From: Pantoea sp. alder81
GTDB lineage: Bacteria; Pseudomonadota; Gammaproteobacteria; Enterobacterales; Enterobacteriaceae
Assembly (NCBI RefSeq): GCF_020179835.1
Contig: NZ_JAIUDA010000001.1
Coordinates: 868,001 to 932,000, forward strand
Direction: 5' to 3'
Length of the DNA stretch: 64,000 nt
Below the pieces are notes generated by a model. That model worked only from the letters and a program-made list of their open reading frames with translations, searched no databases and was not told the DNA's origin. Of this stretch, positions 21,166 to 29,160 are shown in pieces (the first letter of the stretch is position 1; every line of letters starts with the position of its first letter). The position numbers and the translations under genes were made by a program.

Positions 21166-22236
21166 TTAGCGTGAGGCTGGAATGGCGACCCGTCCGTCAA
21201 ATAACAGTCGTGCCGTGCGTATCAAGCCGCTTTGCGTCACCTTCCCTGCCTCATCACAGGTCAGCATCACGCTAATCTCGCCGCTGGGATGCTCTACCGC
21301 CAGACGCTGCTGCCTGGCATCGGTAATCTGCGCGATTCCCTGCGTCACGGAACCGGGGATCAGGCAGGCTGTGGCCACACTCACCGCACCCAGTACACCA
21401 ATAGAAGCGTGACAGCGATGGGGAATAAATGTCCGCGTGGAGAGTGCACCGCCATTAGCGGGTGGCGCAATCAAAGTCATTTTCGGCACGGTTCGTTTGG
21501 TCACATCTCCAAGGTTCATCAGCGGACCGGCTTGCAGGCGGATGGATTCCAGACGGGCTTTTAACCCGGCGTTGCTTTCCAGCTGCTCGCGGGTTTCCTG
21601 TCCAGTGCATCCCACATCCTCAGCACGCAGGATCACCACGGGCATACCGTTATCAATGCAGGTCACCTCAATCCCGTCAAAACGATTACGCGCCTCTCCG
21701 GTCGGCAACAGCGATCCGCAGCTGGAACCGGCGATATCCTCGAATTGCAGAATTTGCTCTGCGCCAAAACCGGGCACGCCGTCTATCTGCGTATCGCCCT
21801 GATATTCCACCATGCCATCAGGCGTGGCGAGTTGCGCCACCGCGATTTGCCCGGTGTTGACCATAAAGATGCGCACGCGCGTGATGTCATCCTGCGCGCT
21901 TATCAGGCCTTTCTCTATTGCAAAGGGCGCCACCGCGGCAAGGATATTGCCACAGTTCTGTCCATAATCGACCACCGCTTTATCCACGTTAACCTGTGCA
22001 AACAGGTAATCGACATCCGCATCAGGCCGCGTCGAAGGTGAGATAATCGCGACTTTGCTGGTCAGCGGATCGGCTCCGCCAATGCCATCAATTTGACGGG
22101 GATCCGGTGAACCCATGACGGCCAGCAACACGCGGTCTCGCTGCGGTCCCGCTTCCGGCAGATCGCTGGCAAGGAAACAGGCGGCTTTAGAGGTGCCGCC
22201 TCGCATCAACACGCAGGGTATCAGCGTCTGTTTCAT
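21166..22236 (-). CDS. galD: 4-oxalomesaconate tautomerase-like protein (GalD, PrpF family)
   Basis: The product has 356 residues of the PrpF-like fold. It starts MKQTLIPCVLMRGGTSKAACF, and the RGGTSK motif near residues 12-17 is the family mark. GalD of Pseudomonas putida converts the keto to the enol form of 4-oxalomesaconate in gallate breakdown. It is the third gene of a tightly coupled operon galB-galC-galD; its ATG overlaps the galC stop by 4 bases. The order and company make a tautomerase role much more likely than the methylcitrate-pathway isomerase PrpF. The protein acts in the cytoplasm. Confidence 0.82.
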   Translation of the reverse strand: MKQTLIPCVLMRGGTSKAACFLASDLPEAGPQRDRVLLAVMGSPDPRQIDGIGGADPLTSKVAIISPSTRPDADVDYLFAQVNVDKAVVDYGQNCGNILAAVAPFAIEKGLISAQDDITRVRIFMVNTGQIAVAQLATPDGMVEYQGDTQIDGVPGFGAEQILQFEDIAGSSCGSLLPTGEARNRFDGIEVTCIDNGMPVVILRAEDVGCTGQETREQLESNAGLKARLESIRLQAGPLMNLGDVTKRTVPKMTLIAPPANGGALSTRTFIPHRCHASIGVLGAVSVATACLIPGSVTQGIAQITDARQQRLAVEHPSGEISVMLTCDEAGKVTQSGLIRTARLLFDGRVAIPASR

Positions 22237-22955
22237 AACGTACTCTTTTGCAAGGCATCCAGTGAATCGACATAGCGCAATCCCTTCTCCGCTAATGTGC
22301 CACGCATCTGATAAATATCCAGCCCAAGTTCCCCGGCAGCCAGTCTTACTCGTTTACTCTCCTCATTGGCGACCCGCTGTTGGGTTGCCTTGGCAACGGT
22401 GTTCGCATCCGCTCGCGGCACAATCACCACGCCGTCGTCATCGGCGACCACAATATCGCCGGGATACACCAGCTGGCCGGCACAGATAATTGGCACGTTC
22501 ACCGAGCCCAGCGTGGCTTTTACCGTTCCCTGAGCAAACACCGCTCGCGACCAGACCGGGAAACCCATTTCACGCAGGGTCTGGCTGTCACGGATACCGA
22601 TATCACCCACCAGCGCCACTACGCCGCGCGCTTTAAGCGAGGTGGCCAGCAGATCACCGAAAAAGCCGTCATGGCAATCCGAGGTCGGCGCCACCAGCAG
22701 CACATCGCCCGGCCGACACTGTTCCACGGCCACATGAAACATCCAGTTATCACCGGGAGAAACCAGCACCGTGACGGCACTGCCGGCGATCGAGCTGCCC
22801 TGCTGGATCGGCCGTATCCGCACATCAAGCAGACCTTGCCGCTGTTGCGCTTCGTGGACGGTCGCCACTCCGGCGTGAGCAAACTGCGCAATCAGAGCAG
22901 AATCGGCCCGCTCAATCTGCGTGACAACGATGCCTTTCTGGTTCACCGCGATCAT
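22233..22955 (-). CDS. galC: 4-carboxy-4-hydroxy-2-oxoadipate aldolase-like protein (GalC/RraA fold)
   Basis: The product has 240 residues of the class II pyruvate-aldolase family with the RraA fold. The segment VALVGDIGIRDSQTLREMGFPVWSRAVFAQG contains the Arg-Asp pair (near residues 120-125) that binds substrate and metal in HMG/CHA aldolases. LVYPGDIVVADDDGVVIVP near 165-185 is equally typical. The enzyme splits 4-carboxy-4-hydroxy-2-oxoadipate to pyruvate and oxaloacetate and often also decarboxylates oxaloacetate. It overlaps galB upstream and galD downstream by 4 bases each. Confidence 0.85.
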   Translation of the reverse strand: MIAVNQKGIVVTQIERADSALIAQFAHAGVATVHEAQQRQGLLDVRIRPIQQGSSIAGSAVTVLVSPGDNWMFHVAVEQCRPGDVLLVAPTSDCHDGFFGDLLATSLKARGVVALVGDIGIRDSQTLREMGFPVWSRAVFAQGTVKATLGSVNVPIICAGQLVYPGDIVVADDDGVVIVPRADANTVAKATQQRVANEESKRVRLAAGELGLDIYQMRGTLAEKGLRYVDSLDALQKSTL

Positions 22956-23689
22956 GAGAGATCCTCCGTTACCCGTGGGAACAGGCTTTGATAGCCTTCG
23001 CCGTGGGTGATGACACGCGTCGAAGCAATCCCCGTATTACGTTTGGCCTGAACACCGCGCTGCAATGCCACGCGGGTGTAGTATTCCCACAGGTGTTCCT
23101 GACCGGCCATACACTGAATCGCCTGGTATTTCTTTTCCCAAACCGGGGTGATATCCAGCAGCACATCCGGTTTCCACAAGCATTGTTCAGGTTGATGCGG
23201 TTCAAAACAGTAAACCGGCGGTGCGCCGATAATCGGTTCTCCCGGACGATACCCTTCTGCCTGCGCAATGATGCGCGCTTCCTGCGTAAGATTTGCCGCC
23301 AGTGGATGATCGTAGTTATAAGGATCGGCAATCGAGTGCGTCAGAACAAAGTGTGGCTGCACGCGGCGAAACACATCGGCCAGGCGGAACAGCGTTTCCT
23401 TATCTGCGCGTAGGGGATAATCGCCAAGATCGAAGAACTCAATGCTCGCACCTAACACATCCGCTGCCCGTTCGGCCTCGGCCTGTCGATGCTGCTTCAC
23501 GGTCTGCTCGGTCATGTTGCCTTTGCGCCACAGTTTTGCCGACTCACCGCGCTCCCCGTAAGAGAGGCAGACAACGTGTACGTCATAGCCGCTCGCACTG
23601 TGTAAAGCGATGGCACCGCCTGCGCGCCAGACAAAGTCAGCTGAATGGGCACTGACCACCAGAGCACTCTTTTTCACTGCGTTTTCCAT
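22952..23689 (-). CDS. galB: 4-oxalomesaconate hydratase-like protein (GalB, PIG-L/LmbE fold)
   Basis: The product has 245 residues from ATG 23689, which has AGGGG 7 bases upstream; the longer frame to 23734 is not supported. The N-terminus SALVVSAHSADFVWRAGGAIALHSASGYDVHVVCLSYGERGES is that of PIG-L-type zinc proteins, with the usual HxDD metal motif replaced by HSADF as in the GalB branch. LTHSIADPYNYDHPLAA near residues 120-136 provides further His/Asp ligands. GalB of P. putida hydrates 4-oxalomesaconate to 4-carboxy-4-hydroxy-2-oxoadipate. It is the first gene of galBCD, divergent from the LysR gene. Confidence 0.85.
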   Translation of the reverse strand: MENAVKKSALVVSAHSADFVWRAGGAIALHSASGYDVHVVCLSYGERGESAKLWRKGNMTEQTVKQHRQAEAERAADVLGASIEFFDLGDYPLRADKETLFRLADVFRRVQPHFVLTHSIADPYNYDHPLAANLTQEARIIAQAEGYRPGEPIIGAPPVYCFEPHQPEQCLWKPDVLLDITPVWEKKYQAIQCMAGQEHLWEYYTRVALQRGVQAKRNTGIASTRVITHGEGYQSLFPRVTEDLS

Positions 23690-23818
23690 TGTGTTCCCCT
23701 TCTGTTGCGTTTTTTTCATCCTGACACGCAGCATCCAGGCCGAATAATGCCTTTCATTGTACGAGCTATGATTTTTATTTATGTTGTGATCACTATCAGA
23801 GGATCAGGAGCAGAAGGC
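23690..23818. promoter_or_regulatory. Divergent promoter region between galB and the LysR regulator
   Basis: These 129 bases contain a GTGATCAC palindrome at about 23786-23793 within an AT-rich stretch, as expected for a LysR-type control region that serves both directions. Exact promoter elements were not assigned. Confidence 0.4.
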
Positions 23819-25048
23819 ATGCTGGAAAGTGAAGACGGTAACCACATTAAAATCATGCAGCTAAGGTCACTTTGTATGATTGCCGAACGGGGAACTGTCT
23901 CGGAAGCTGCAGGAGATTTATTTCGCACGCAATCGGCAGTAACGCGATCGATACGTGATCTGGAACACACTCTGGCGACGCCTTTGTTTGAACGTCATGC
24001 CAGCGGGATGCTGCTTACCGAGAAGGGAAAATGCGTGCTGCCCCGCGCCCAGCGCGCCCTTCAGGAACTCAAACAGATACCCGCACTTCTCGCCCGGTTT
24101 AAACAGCGCGAATCTATGCGTGATGACGCCGAACCGATTTGGTTGTTCAACGTCAGACGCCTGCAGATATTTTTACGGCTGTTTCATTTGCAGCACACGC
24201 AAAGCGTGGCCAGCTCGCTGGATATCAGCCAGCCCGCCGTCAGTGCCGCGCTCAAGGTGCTGGAGAAAGGAGCCAATATTGTGCTGTTCCAGCGCTCCCC
24301 GCGAGGTATGCAGCCGACGGCCGCCGCACGTGAAATGGCGCCACATGTCAGCCGCGCCCTGAATGAAATTCGCCATATCCCGGAAGATCTTGCCGCACAG
24401 CAAGGGGTTTTGCAGGGCACCGTGCATATTGGTGCCCTGCCATTGTGTCGCAGTGTGTTATTGCCCCGCGCGATCACCCGCCTGGTGACGGCACATCCGG
24501 CGATCAAGGTCGTGACCAATGAAAGTGCCTTTAGCACGCTGATTACCGAACTCCGCGCAGGCGACGTTGACCTGATTGTCGGTGCCTTGCGTCATGACAG
24601 CAACGTCACTGATATCGATAATCGCCGACTGTTTAGCGAAGAACTGGTGCTGCTCGCCAGGCCACAACACCCGTTAGCCGGTCGAACGTTAACCGCTGCC
24701 GATCTCGCCGACACACAGTGGATTCTGCCACGTGAAAACAGCCCGGCCCGCCATCTGTTAGAACACGCCCTTGCCACGTTGCACATTCCGGCACCCAAAC
24801 CCGTGGTGGAGAGCGGTGACCTGGCGATCGTGCGCGGCTTATTAATGGACTCCGACATGGTGGCAGCCGTGTCATGGCACCAACTGGAGTACGAATTGAA
24901 GTCGGGCACGCTCAAACCTTTATCCTTCACTCTGCCCGATACGCATCGTGATATTGGCATCACATTGCGCGCGGGTGCGCTGCATTCCCCGGCCACGCTG
25001 GCACTGATTAAGTGCATCAACGCCGAAGCTCATACAACAGCGACCTAA
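23819..25048 (+). CDS. LysR-type regulator with two tandem N-terminal HTH domains
   Basis: The product has 409 residues from ATG 23819 (AGGAGCAGAAGGC upstream). The open frame reaches back to 23645, but that part overlaps galB. Two LysR-like winged helices are visible. The first spans about residues 13-75 (LRSLCMIAERGTVSEAAGDLFRTQSAVTRSIRDLEHTL). The second spans about 114-176 (LQIFLRLFHLQHTQSVASSLDISQPAVSAALKVLEK). The co-inducer domain follows from about 190. A normal LysR protein has one HTH and about 300 residues, so this is an extended form. By position it should control galBCD leftward and the permease-dioxygenase genes rightward, with an aromatic acid or ring-cleavage product as inducer. 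Confidence 0.85.
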   Translation: MLESEDGNHIKIMQLRSLCMIAERGTVSEAAGDLFRTQSAVTRSIRDLEHTLATPLFERHASGMLLTEKGKCVLPRAQRALQELKQIPALLARFKQRESMRDDAEPIWLFNVRRLQIFLRLFHLQHTQSVASSLDISQPAVSAALKVLEKGANIVLFQRSPRGMQPTAAAREMAPHVSRALNEIRHIPEDLAAQQGVLQGTVHIGALPLCRSVLLPRAITRLVTAHPAIKVVTNESAFSTLITELRAGDVDLIVGALRHDSNVTDIDNRRLFSEELVLLARPQHPLAGRTLTAADLADTQWILPRENSPARHLLEHALATLHIPAPKPVVESGDLAIVRGLLMDSDMVAAVSWHQLEYELKSGTLKPLSFTLPDTHRDIGITLRAGALHSPATLALIKCINAEAHTTAT

Positions 25049-25284: not shown

Positions 25285-26661
25285 ATGAATACAAATAAGC
25301 TGGTCGACATCAAAGCCTGGATTGATTCACGACCCATTTCGGCCTTTCAATGGCGCGTGTTATTCCTCTGCCTGATCATCATTATGTTCGACGGTTACGA
25401 TGCCGCCGTGATGGGATTTATTGCGCCGGCGCTGATAGAGCAGTGGCATATCTCACGCGCCGCGATGGGGCCGATTCTGGGCGCGGCGATGTTTGGCGTG
25501 GCGATTGGCGCACTGATCGCCGGTCCCTTATCCGATCGCTTTGGCCGTAAAAAAATCATCCTGCTCGCGGTACTGATGTTCTCCGCTTTCAGTCTGATCT
25601 GCGCCTTCGCCACCACGCCGCTGCAAATGGCGATGATACGATTCATTGCCGGACTCGGGCTGGGCGCAGTCATGCCCAACTGTGTCACGCTGCTGGCAGA
25701 ATATATGCCTGAGCGTCGCAAAGGCGTGATGATTACCCTGATGTTCAGCGGTTTTAATATCGGTTCCGGGCTGGGTGGCTTTATCGCCGCGGGATTGCTG
25801 GCGCACTATCACTGGAATGCTGTGCTCATTTTCGGCGGTGCACTGCCGCTGCTTCTGTTGCCCTTATTAAGTTATCTGCTACCTGAATCTGCGTTGAATT
25901 TGGTGGTGCGCCGGGCACCACGCGTGCAGATTGCCGCGCTGCTTAATCGCATGGGCGGCCAGTTTCAGCAGGATACGGCGTTCGTGCTCAACTCTCCCCG
26001 GATCAATCGCAACAGCACCATTTCCCAGCTCTTCCACCACGGTTTTGCCCGCGGCACGATCATTCTGTGGGTGACATATTTCATGGGGCTGTTTGTGATT
26101 TATCTGCTCAACGGCTGGCTGCCGACCATTATGCGTTCGGGCGGCATTTCCCTTGAACAAGCGGCGATTCTGGCGGGATTATTCCAGTTAGGCGGACCAC
26201 TTGGCGGTATTCTGGTCGGTGCATTGATGGATAAGTGCAACGCGAGAGTGGTAATTGGCGTGGTCTATCTGCTGGGTTGTCTCTGCTTGTTAGCACAGGG
26301 CATCTTCGCGTTTACCGGGGTGGCGTTGGGCATATTCATTTTCATTATCGGCATGTGTATTAATGGCGCACAGAATGGTCTGCAGGTTTATTCTCCTGCT
26401 TATTACCCTACTGAAATGCGCGCCACCGGGGTGAGCTGGATGCACGGCATTGGCCGCACCGGTGCGATCCTGAGTTCTTCGATTGGCGGATTGCTGATGG
26501 GCGCATTCCCGGCGCAGTCGGCAATTTTCTATATTCTTGCTCTACCCGCTTTACTGGCCGCGATCAGTATTGTGCTTCATCGTAATGTTTCTCTGTCTCT
26601 GAAAATAAAGGGCGCAGCGCTGGATGACCTTCCGACGCTGTCACAAACCCTCAATAAATAG
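25285..26661 (+). CDS. MFS aromatic acid:H+ symporter (AAHS family, GalT/PcaK-like)
   Basis: The product has 458 residues and 12 predicted helices. MNTNKLVDIKAWIDSRPIS then FQWRVLFLCLIIIMFDGYDAAVMGFIAP is the AAHS N-terminus with the DGYD motif in helix 1. GPLSDRFGRKK between helices 2 and 3 is the MFS loop motif. The family imports benzoate-, protocatechuate- or gallate-type acids with protons. ATG 25285 with GAGAGAG upstream is preferred over the TTG at 25258. The dioxygenase gene begins 10 bases after its stop, so the two form one transcript. The 236-bp gap before it (25049-25284) shows no gene and may hold a promoter. Confidence 0.88.
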   Translation: MNTNKLVDIKAWIDSRPISAFQWRVLFLCLIIIMFDGYDAAVMGFIAPALIEQWHISRAAMGPILGAAMFGVAIGALIAGPLSDRFGRKKIILLAVLMFSAFSLICAFATTPLQMAMIRFIAGLGLGAVMPNCVTLLAEYMPERRKGVMITLMFSGFNIGSGLGGFIAAGLLAHYHWNAVLIFGGALPLLLLPLLSYLLPESALNLVVRRAPRVQIAALLNRMGGQFQQDTAFVLNSPRINRNSTISQLFHHGFARGTIILWVTYFMGLFVIYLLNGWLPTIMRSGGISLEQAAILAGLFQLGGPLGGILVGALMDKCNARVVIGVVYLLGCLCLLAQGIFAFTGVALGIFIFIIGMCINGAQNGLQVYSPAYYPTEMRATGVSWMHGIGRTGAILSSSIGGLLMGAFPAQSAIFYILALPALLAAISIVLHRNVSLSLKIKGAALDDLPTLSQTLNK

Positions 26662-26671
26662 GAATGGCCTC

Positions 26672-27652
26672 ATGACATCTCAACTTTCTGAACCCTGCTT
26701 CGATATTGCACATCTTGCTCACGTGGAGCTTTACACCGACAAGTTTGAAGAGAGCCTCAACTTCTTCGTCAATGTTTATGGCTTAACGATCACCGCGCAG
26801 GACGACGATCACGCCTGGCTGCGCGCCTGGGATGATTATGAATTTCACAGCCTGAAACTCACGCGGCATCACACTACCGGCGTGGGTCATATTGCCTATC
26901 GCGCCGCCTCGCAGGCCGCGCTGGAACGACGAGTAGCGGCGATTGAAGCCAGCCCCTATGAAGTGCTCGGTTGGGTCAACGACGATCAGGGCCACGGCCA
27001 GGCATTTCGCTTTACCGATCCCTTTGGCCACATTTTTGAGATCTATTACGACACGGTCCGATATCAGGCTCCCGACGATCAACGCCCGTCGCTGAAAAAT
27101 CTGTCTCAGCGTTACCATGCGCGTGGCGCCTGTCCGCGCCGTCTCGATCATCTCAACCTGTTGGCAGCCGATGTCAGTGAGTTCAAGCGCTTCATGGAAA
27201 CCTGCTTAGGCTCCCGCGTAACAGAGATGATTCAGCTGGATAATGGCCGCGTTGGTGGCTGCTGGTTCACCATCAATAATAAAACCTATGATTTGGCCTG
27301 TACCGAAGAGCACGGTGGCGGCAACGGGCGACTGCATCATGTGACCTACGCCACCGACACGCGGGAAGACATTCTGCGCGCGGCCGACATCTTCCTGGAA
27401 AACGGCGTGCACATTGAAACCGGCCCACACAAACATGCCATTCAGGGCACATTTTTCCTCTATGTCTGGGAACCGGCGGGAAATCGTGTCGAGCTGGCCA
27501 ATTCCGGCGCTCGTCTGATTCTGGCGCCGGACTGGCAGACAGTGGTCTGGACGGAAAGCGAACGCAAGAAAGGCCAGGCGTGGGGCCTGAAAACCATTGA
27601 GACGTTTCATACTCATGGCACACCGCCAATGCCCAAATCGCAAAATCATTAA
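26672..27652 (+). CDS. Type I (VOC) extradiol ring-cleavage dioxygenase with an altered active-site residue
   Basis: The product has 326 residues from ATG 26672. Two vicinal-oxygen-chelate modules (about 12-128 and 155-275) show the catechol 2,3-dioxygenase layout. Iron ligands are His160 (RRLDHLNLL), His223 (GRLHHVTY) and Glu274 (GNRVELAN). Second-sphere His255 and Tyr264 are also present. By alignment from memory with XylE (TKAHDVAF...GRLHHVSF), the position of its catalytic acid-base His199 is Tyr206 here (KTYDLAC...GRLHHVTY). It should open a dihydroxylated ring next to the hydroxyls. In gal operons this step is done by an unrelated LigB-type enzyme, so this protein may replace it or act on another substrate. 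Confidence 0.82.
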   Translation: MTSQLSEPCFDIAHLAHVELYTDKFEESLNFFVNVYGLTITAQDDDHAWLRAWDDYEFHSLKLTRHHTTGVGHIAYRAASQAALERRVAAIEASPYEVLGWVNDDQGHGQAFRFTDPFGHIFEIYYDTVRYQAPDDQRPSLKNLSQRYHARGACPRRLDHLNLLAADVSEFKRFMETCLGSRVTEMIQLDNGRVGGCWFTINNKTYDLACTEEHGGGNGRLHHVTYATDTREDILRAADIFLENGVHIETGPHKHAIQGTFFLYVWEPAGNRVELANSGARLILAPDWQTVVWTESERKKGQAWGLKTIETFHTHGTPPMPKSQNH

Positions 27653-27747: not shown

Positions 27748-27779
27748 CTCCTTGTAGGGTAATTCTCCCCTACAAGGAG
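27748..27779 (+). promoter_or_regulatory. Perfect 12-bp stem-loop that contains the ribosome binding site of the amidohydrolase
   Basis: CTCCTTGTAGGG (27748-27759) and CCCTACAAGGAG (27768-27779) are perfect reverse complements around an 8-base loop. The AGGAG of the 3' arm is the only Shine-Dalgarno sequence for the ATG at 27790. In RNA the stem would hide it. As DNA it could be an operator. It lies in the 137-bp gap between the dioxygenase and amidohydrolase genes. Confidence 0.7.
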
Positions 27780-27789
27780 AAAATAACCT

Positions 27790-29160
27790 ATGAGCCTCAT
27801 GACTTCCGGCAACCGCCGGGACTTTCTTTCCGCTGGCATCAAACTCACTGCGGCAGGTACGCTGCTCAGTGCCGGATTAAGTAGCCGTACCGCTGCAGCG
27901 GCTGCCTGTAGCCCTGAAAACCTGACGCACATCGATGTCAGCCACTATCTGTTGCGCAATGTGCGTCTGGAAGAAGCCTTTGTACGTCATCATGGCGTTA
28001 TTACCGCGACGCGCACCGGTTTGTACGATATCGAAATCAACGGCGCAACTATCGCGGGTATCCACGCGGCGGGTTTCAGCAGCACCCTTCCCGCCTGGGA
28101 TGCAGCGGGTCACATCCTGCTTCCCGCAACGCGCGATATGCATATCCACCTCGATAAAACCTTTTATGGCGATGGCTGGCGCGCTCCGCTGCCGCGTAAG
28201 AGCGTGATTGATATGATTCATCAGGAGGAACAGATTCTTCCTGAGATTGTGCCGACCTCAGAAATGCGTGCCGAGAAGCTGATTGGCCTGCTGCAATCGA
28301 AAGGCAGCACCGAAGCGCGCAGCCACTGCAATATCGATCCGATCAGCAAGCTGGACGGGTTGGCGCACTTGCAACAGGCGATTGCTAACCACCGTCAGGA
28401 CTTTACCGCGAAGATTGTCGCCTTTCCGCAGCATGGGCTGTTGCGGTCCAGGGTCGAAGGTATGATGCGTGAAGCGATGAAAATGGGCGCCAATTTTGTC
28501 GGCGGCCTGGATCCGACCAACGTTGATGGCGCGATGGAGAAGTCGCTGGATACCATGTTCAGCATCGCGCTCGATTTTGCTGCGCCGGTGGATATCCACC
28601 TGCATGAAACCGAACCGCACGGCTTGGCCGCGATACGCTATATGCTTAAAACGGTGCGCGAGAATCCGCAGCTAAAAGGCAAAGTCACCATCAGCCATGC
28701 GTTTGCGCTGGGCACGTTGTCCGGTAAAGAACTGGATGCGATGATCGAGGAGCTCAAAGAACAGCAGTTCAGCATCGCCACCACCGTGCCGATTGGGCGC
28801 GTCATCATGCCGTTGCCACAACTGCGTGCGGCGGGCGTCCCGGTATGGTCCGGCACCGATACCATTGCCGACCACTGGCAACCCTTTGGCAGCGGCAGCA
28901 TGCTGGAAAAAGCCAATGTCTATGCACAGCTGTATCGTGGCCCGGATGAGTTTTCACTGAGTCGCGCATTGGGTATCGCCACCAATGAGGTGCTGCCGCT
29001 GAACAGCCAGGGAGAACAGCAGTGGCCGAAGTTACAGGATAGCGCGACGATGATGTTAGTGGCGGCGAGTTGTTCTGCTGAAGCGGTGGCGCATGTTGCT
29101 CCGGTGATGGCGACATTCCATAACGGTAAACAGGTATTTGGCCAGCTAAAGAAAATTTAA
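27790..29160 (+). CDS. Tat-exported amidohydrolase of the cytosine deaminase-like family
   Basis: The product has 456 residues. The N-terminus MTSGNRRDFLSAGIKLTAA carries a twin-arginine motif (Arg9-Arg10, RRDFL) followed by a hydrophobic stretch and an alanine-rich cleavage region, so a folded periplasmic enzyme is predicted. RDMHIHLDKTF near 120 supplies the HxH metal pair, HCNID and VDIHLHETEPHG further ligands, and WSGTDTIADHW the conserved Asp near the C-terminus. The family (CodA/AtzC-related) deaminates or hydrolyses ring or side-chain C-N bonds. Its position after the permease and dioxygenase suggests it prepares an aromatic or heterocyclic substrate outside the cytoplasm. The start at 27790 uses AGGAG in a hairpin; ATG 27799 is an alternative. 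Confidence 0.8.
   Translation: MSLMTSGNRRDFLSAGIKLTAAGTLLSAGLSSRTAAAAACSPENLTHIDVSHYLLRNVRLEEAFVRHHGVITATRTGLYDIEINGATIAGIHAAGFSSTLPAWDAAGHILLPATRDMHIHLDKTFYGDGWRAPLPRKSVIDMIHQEEQILPEIVPTSEMRAEKLIGLLQSKGSTEARSHCNIDPISKLDGLAHLQQAIANHRQDFTAKIVAFPQHGLLRSRVEGMMREAMKMGANFVGGLDPTNVDGAMEKSLDTMFSIALDFAAPVDIHLHETEPHGLAAIRYMLKTVRENPQLKGKVTISHAFALGTLSGKELDAMIEELKEQQFSIATTVPIGRVIMPLPQLRAAGVPVWSGTDTIADHWQPFGSGSMLEKANVYAQLYRGPDEFSLSRALGIATNEVLPLNSQGEQQWPKLQDSATMMLVAASCSAEAVAHVAPVMATFHNGKQVFGQLKKI

Follow-up and report, generated by a model that had tools for sequence, protein, structure and literature searches.

The breakdown routes of tannins and of syringyl lignin come together at gallate. The published background was taken from passages on the gallate pathway and on dioxygenases in PMC4250580, PMC12311729, PMC8671467, PMC12314914 and PMC3962378. 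In the passage on Pseudomonas putida KT2440, gallate is split to 4-oxalomesaconate, which is then passed to GalD, GalB and GalC; in the excerpt on AromaDeg, gallate dioxygenases are assigned to the LigB superfamily (type II). The excerpt from the DesB paper places the catalytic His of DesB and that of the type I enzyme BphC in the same position, so that, to the extent of this excerpt, both known classes use His there. A search of titles and abstract openings in the open-access literature gave no report of a type I (VOC) gallate dioxygenase, which does not prove the absence of one.

The stretch of DNA analysed here (64,000 nucleotides of Pantoea sp. alder81, contig NZ_JAIUDA010000001.1) is referred to as the window. 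A gene on its plus strand (26672..27652) starts with ATG at 26672, ends with a stop codon closing at 27652, the boundaries of the original prediction being retained, and encodes a VOC (type I) dioxygenase of 326 amino acids, a proposed gallate dioxygenase in which Tyr206 occupies the position of the catalytic His. PF00903 was matched in two stretches, as two tandem VOC modules (E = 4.8e-20, 72.6 bits versus 20.6 in Pfam). Only VOC-type Pfam families were found, and the LigB and LigA domains of GalA and DesB were not among them. Judged by its sequence, the protein is placed in the type I family by descent, as a variant clade rather than a canonical member; it is not a GalA, though it may work like one. 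E. coli genomes gave no match, and four scans of viral contigs yielded no diverse relatives.

The top NCBIfam model was TIGR03211, catechol 2,3-dioxygenase (E = 1.1e-87), and two relatives sharing the Tyr (L028 and L030) score above its cut-off, which counts against a gallate dioxygenase and in favour of an ordinary catechol 2,3-dioxygenase lying beside gal genes by chance. This latter reading is highly improbable, as the window protein itself stays below the equivalog cut-off (294.2 versus 320.2 bits), its residues T250, H253 and R281 differ from those of XylE, HpaD and PDB entry 3lm4, and the operon is found in 60 of 78 related loci, with interchange with GalA (see below).

Active-site residues were assigned by alignment with XylE (pWW0, L164), HpaD (L165), PDB entry 3lm4 and PDB entry 1f1x. 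The iron ligands originally claimed, H160, H223 and E274, all align with the corresponding columns of these references to give a 2-His-1-Glu site, and the claimed second-sphere residues H255 and Y264 also lie in conserved columns. Codon 206 (TAT, Tyr; 27287..27289, plus strand) is aligned with His in nine of nine His-type rows (XylE, HpaD, 3lm4, 1f1x and five more), in a column that we take to be XylE His199 and His200 of homoprotocatechuate 2,3-dioxygenase (HPCD); Arg243, His248, Tyr257 and Arg293 of HPCD are likewise names presumed for aligned columns. A careful alignment had been named in the original prediction as a possible refutation of the Tyr at the XylE His199 position, and it keeps Tyr206 there.

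Tyr206 is the mark of one clade, with a single origin, and is no mutation of a single strain. A large alignment of 112 rows (redundant, with many close relatives and some genomes present twice) has Tyr in 102 rows, His in nine and a gap in one (L063, aligned by the wrong domain); because 102 of the 112 rows carry it, the Tyr is no sequencing accident. A second alignment has Tyr at position 206 in each of its 43 rows, L063 included, and a small one has it in 10 of 10 rows, at identities down to 58% (Thermus oshimai). In a tree of 29 rows, the 20 Tyr rows form a single group (support 99/97) against nine His rows, and one His/Tyr change was found in 98% of the bootstrap trees, long branches being flagged among the His rows. 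The Tyr clade takes in homologues from Thermus oshimai, Nonomuraea and PDB entry 9wgj. Since Tyr is common to the whole clade, it predates the exchange in Pantoea described below and was not acquired on entering the gal cluster.

With the acid/base residue of this fold replaced, the protein might be a weak or non-catalytic VOC protein (a binding protein or a remover of side products), the ring being cleaved by another enzyme. The Tyr rows retain H160, H223, E274, H255 and Y264 without exception (102 of 102), which is unexpected for a dead enzyme, and T250, H253 and R281 in 101 of 102, the exception being 9wgj. HPCD variants at His200 retain activity with some substrates, which also speaks against a loss of catalysis. 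The cited passage on the type II enzyme DesB points the other way, with His192 as the catalytic base and a His124Phe variant that has no detectable activity. The VOC gene also alternates with GalA in the genus, and a non-catalytic role is considered very improbable.

The stop codon of a gene for a PcaK-like MFS transporter of aromatic acids (25285..26661, plus strand) lies 10 bases upstream of the dioxygenase ATG. The transporter open reading frame is listed from TTG 25258, ATG 25285 being the likelier start, and the best models, PcaK NF053517 (429.6 bits, cut-off 770) and TIGR00895 (391.7 bits, cut-off 418.55), were both matched below cut-off. A LysR-type regulator (23645..25048, plus strand; true start probably further downstream), to which the role of galR is provisionally given, has two HTH_1 stretches and a LysR_substrate domain; its top NCBIfam model, PcaQ, was also matched below cut-off. 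The doubled HTH_1, an unusual LysR build, is likewise seen in the operon regulator of Agrobacterium vitis (L023, 4186-5388).

Three pathway genes are found on the minus strand. That for the PIG-L-type 4-oxalomesaconate hydratase homologue (22952..23734, PF02585) is named galB from the Pfam PIG-L match, synteny, a galB label in the operon of a relative and the published pathway, all its NCBIfam matches being below cut-off. The galC gene (22233..22955), for 4-carboxy-4-hydroxy-2-oxoadipate aldolase, matches NF006731 (395.2 bits, cut-off 179) and TIGR02798 (343.2 bits) above cut-off, and galD (21166..22236), for 4-oxalomesaconate tautomerase, matches NF033377 (544.1 bits, cut-off 440). With galB, galC, galD, a regulator and a transporter, the components of a gallate 4,5-cleavage cluster are present. 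The gallate-type operon of the original prediction stands as regards its galBCD homologues, with the correction that it is a two-part divergent cluster, with galB-galC-galD on the minus strand and galR, the transporter and the VOC gene on the plus strand.

A strong hairpin with a 12-pair stem (27748..27779, plus strand; -21.9 kcal/mol, z -4.75) follows the dioxygenase gene, ahead of its downstream neighbour. It has no T run and is a possible end of the transcript; the terminator scan does not list it, and the scan for promoters and terminators gave nothing above chance. On its 3' side, 27790-29160 encodes a cytosine-deaminase-like Amidohydro_3 protein with a Tat-signal-like N-terminus (NRRDFL). 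Among the loci examined, the window's subclade is the only one in which this gene adjoins the VOC gene.

The window genome, in 35 contigs and with a listed completeness of 100%, was searched for other ring-cleavage enzymes. PF02900 gave one match, a protein of 261 amino acids that is not a LigB+LigA fusion and that we take to be a YgiD homologue; E. coli also gives a match in this search. A GalA is thus missing from the genome as predicted, the search proposed at the outset as a refuting test having found no LigB-type gallate dioxygenase elsewhere. PF00775, for intradiol enzymes, had no match in the window genome.

The distribution of the two enzymes was determined in 61 genomes of the window's genus, a GalA-type LigB being called at E <=1e-45. 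Of these genomes, 31 carry galD, 19 the VOC gene and 10 a GalA-type LigB; the pattern was the same in an initial subset of 40. The genomes hold 28 galR-galB-galC-galD clusters, 18 with the Tyr-type VOC enzyme, 10 with a canonical GalA and none with neither. Where galD scores at least 536 bits (27 genomes), 17 genomes have the VOC gene only, nine GalA only, one both and none neither. Two GalA proteins tested are canonical by NF009904 (787 and 839 bits, cut-off 412) and one tested with Pfam is LigB+LigA. One genome (G107; L175, L176) has two complete gal clusters that differ in the enzyme, GalA in the first case and VOC in the other.

In all 10 GalA clusters, the gene that directly follows the MFS transporter is GalA. 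The VOC gene is directly behind the transporter in eight of 18 VOC clusters (the window, G000, and G017, G021, G035, G063, G093, G099 and G100) and elsewhere within 20 kb of galD in seven; in the remaining three (G010, G022 and G030) it is on a different contig from galD, which counts against the reading as a replacement. Also to be counted against it are four genomes (G020, G027, G102 and G106) with a lower-scoring galD (512-520 bits) and neither enzyme, one with a VOC gene and no galD (G098), a VOC gene in pieces (G060, L172) and two with a frame break near the C-terminus (G005, L154; G026, L155). The 20 kb fetched around the lone galD of G020, G027, G102 and G106 yielded neither galB nor galC. 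In Pantoea sp. At-9b (G022; L151, L169), the VOC gene is on plasmid pPAT9B03, where its neighbours are flavin monooxygenases and ABC transporters of the peptide type, and it is not linked to galBCD; in G017 (L156) the transporter is split over two frames.

A cluster tree was calculated from GalR+GalB+GalC+GalD of the 28 clusters with a midpoint root. This tree requires a minimum of two switches of enzyme type, GalA clusters G006, G034 and G091 being sister to VOC clusters G022 and G030 (support 100/100); an earlier version with 20 clusters also shows exchange. The original prediction had offered either a non-orthologous replacement or a new ring-cleavage reaction. The absence of GalA from the window genome, the 28 clusters with one enzyme or the other, the common slot behind the transporter and the exchange on the cluster tree all favour the former, and the latter is not needed to explain the data. 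That the VOC enzyme is a non-orthologous replacement of GalA is strongly supported, by genetics rather than biochemistry.

Between Pantoea (five loci) and Rhizobiaceae (12 loci), the median identity is 83.3% for the VOC enzyme, compared with 59.3% for GalB, 60.5% for GalC and 59.6% for GalD, and the window LysR is 31% identical to the Rhizobiaceae LysR (n = 11). The medians between Rhizobiaceae and Rhodobacterales and others (11 loci) are 80.8% (VOC), 82.2% (GalB), 78.3% (GalC) and 71.4% (GalD), and those within Pantoea 88.6, 89.3, 79.0 and 80.6%, respectively. The VOC tree groups Pantoea with Rhizobiaceae (support 98/95). Slow evolution of the VOC enzyme, which might mimic a lone transfer, was rejected, as VOC and GalB diverge equally within Alphaproteobacteria. 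Given this equal conservation, the difference between 83% for the VOC enzyme and about 60% for the pathway enzymes indicates that the VOC gene moved alone; it seems to have travelled by itself and to have been plugged into a pre-existing gallate cluster. These Erwiniaceae probably obtained it, unaccompanied, from a Rhizobiaceae-like donor, the direction into Pantoea being taken from the nesting.

Related loci were collected as the best 80 at >=75% identity to the dioxygenase, several genomes being represented twice. In the 78 loci L033-L110, mostly from Rhizobiales and Rhodobacterales, galB, galC and galD accompany the VOC gene in 60, the order being galB-VOC-galC in 45; seven have part of the gal set and 11 none, four of these 11 being shorter than 14 kb. 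The best reading is that the VOC enzyme is common in Alphaproteobacteria as galB-VOC-galC-galD. LigB proteins were surveyed in the genomes of 24 alphaproteobacterial VOC loci, hand-picked from the 80 and including some MAGs: none was found in nine, only matches of <=115 bits in seven and matches of >=190 bits in eight. Strict exclusivity of VOC and LigB enzymes outside the genus was rejected, both being present in those eight of 24 genomes. A GalA-like gene lies <=10 kb from the VOC gene in four loci (L029, L056, L103 and L109), which is counted against the replacement.

A DUF1932/6-phosphogluconate-dehydrogenase-like gene accompanies GalA-type and VOC-type clusters alike (35 of 55 loci with full flanks). 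It is beside galD in L034, L140-L143, L147, L149 and others and near galB in many alphaproteobacterial loci; in the subclade of the window itself, no such gene was seen next to galD. As a pointer to protocatechuate as the substrate it was rejected, since it is also beside galD in GalA clusters. On a plasmid of Thermus oshimai (L030), the Tyr-type homologue is found with genes for a PobA-like hydroxylase, ring-hydroxylating dioxygenase subunits, an aldehyde dehydrogenase, DUF6282, a PIG-L protein and a galC-like protein, a set that may form a related pathway of ring cleavage in this thermophile.

The PobA-like hydroxylase, aldehyde dehydrogenase and galB-/galC-like genes of L030 would suit a protocatechuate 4,5-dioxygenase, the semialdehyde product of which would be oxidized to pyrone-dicarboxylate and hydrolysed to 4-oxalomesaconate, with the same galBCD genes serving. 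Amidohydro_2 genes near the homologues in six of the 55 full-flank loci and the lack of a PF00775 intradiol enzyme in the window genome are in keeping with such a route. The amidohydrolase queries gave no match in the other 49 of these loci, a scan of seven window proteins around the VOC gene turned up no semialdehyde dehydrogenase and no Amidohydro_2 protein, and it is GalA, an NF009904 gallate dioxygenase, with which the VOC enzyme is exchanged in the genus. Protocatechuate 4,5-cleavage is considered distinctly unlikely.

The product of the gene is very probably a gallate dioxygenase of type I (VOC fold, two domains, Fe(II)) that replaces the LigB-type GalA, a reading in which the metal, the gallate substrate, the 4-oxalomesaconate product and the role of Tyr206 are all deduced. 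Gallate would enter through the MFS transporter, two of its adjacent hydroxyls would bind at the iron held by His160, His223 and Glu274, and the C4-C5 bond would be opened to 4-oxalomesaconate, to be converted into pyruvate and oxaloacetate by GalD, GalB and GalC. As the same downstream orthologues accompany either enzyme, the product of the VOC enzyme is most likely to be that of GalA. Tyr206 would replace His as a second-sphere acid/base or hydrogen-bond donor, and the third hydroxyl of a pyrogallol-type substrate might make the Tyr tolerable by sharing the proton task.

HPCD variant H200F shifts toward intradiol cleavage. Relative to the 3,4-diol of gallate, cleavage of the C4-C5 bond is extradiol; relative to the 4,5-diol it is intradiol, and 4-oxalomesaconate results either way. 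Since the cleaved bond joins two hydroxylated carbons and both routes give one product, the pressure to keep an extradiol-enforcing His may be gone. A bolder reading, which we regard as unlikely, is that gallate dioxygenase evolved a second time, independently, and that the loss of His serves a function. The protein would then be a natural VOC enzyme able to work in an intradiol mode, the proton being moved by Tyr206 and the third hydroxyl. The Tyr clade offers a natural test of the function of the conserved second-sphere His, as the whole clade is without it and, within one genus, trades places at this step with an unrelated enzyme.

In the records examined, the VOC genes are labelled catechol 2,3-dioxygenase, bphC or VOC family protein. 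A 2025 study of syringate, in the portion cited, called the pathway by galA, desB and ligAB. Because surveys call the pathway by LigB-type genes, a widespread alphaproteobacterial VOC route would be missed. Some plant-associated bacteria appear to cleave gallic acid, a common building block of plant tannins, with an enzyme of another family than that known for this step.

The nearest solved chain is PDB entry 9wgj_A (363 bits), which has Tyr at the catalytic position and belongs to the same clade; it differs in having Leu250, Ser253 and Tyr281 for Thr, His and Arg and lies outside the gal-linked group. It was deposited as a catechol 1,2-dioxygenase, which is counted against the gallate reading; this name, an intradiol one, may be an error or may point to intradiol activity. 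No paper naming 9WGJ was found in the open-access literature searched. The type I catechol 2,3-dioxygenases XylE and 3lm4/7q2a have in common with the window enzyme two VOC modules (by sequence), the 2-His-1-Glu site and H255/Y264; the window enzyme is set apart from them by Tyr206 for His, by T250, H253 and R281, by its gal context and by a TIGR03211 score below the cut-off. HPCD (1f1x/1q0c) is also type I, acts on a carboxylated catechol and has the same metal site, whereas its Arg243, Arg292/293 and His200 (HPCD numbering, presumed roles) correspond to Thr250, Lys299/300 and Tyr206 of the window enzyme.

GalA of P. putida KT2440 and DesB of Sphingobium SYK-6 (type II, LigB superfamily), as described in the passages cited, resemble the window enzyme in the proposed reaction, in the place in the pathway and in the downstream GalD, GalB and GalC, and the slot of the Pantoea GalA behind the transporter is held in the window by the VOC gene. 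They are of an unrelated family, with PF02900 and PF07746 rather than the PF00903 of the VOC enzyme, and, in the excerpt on DesB, that enzyme has a catalytic His where the window enzyme has Tyr. What appears to be new here is a member of the type I enzyme family that would do the work of the known type II gallate dioxygenase.
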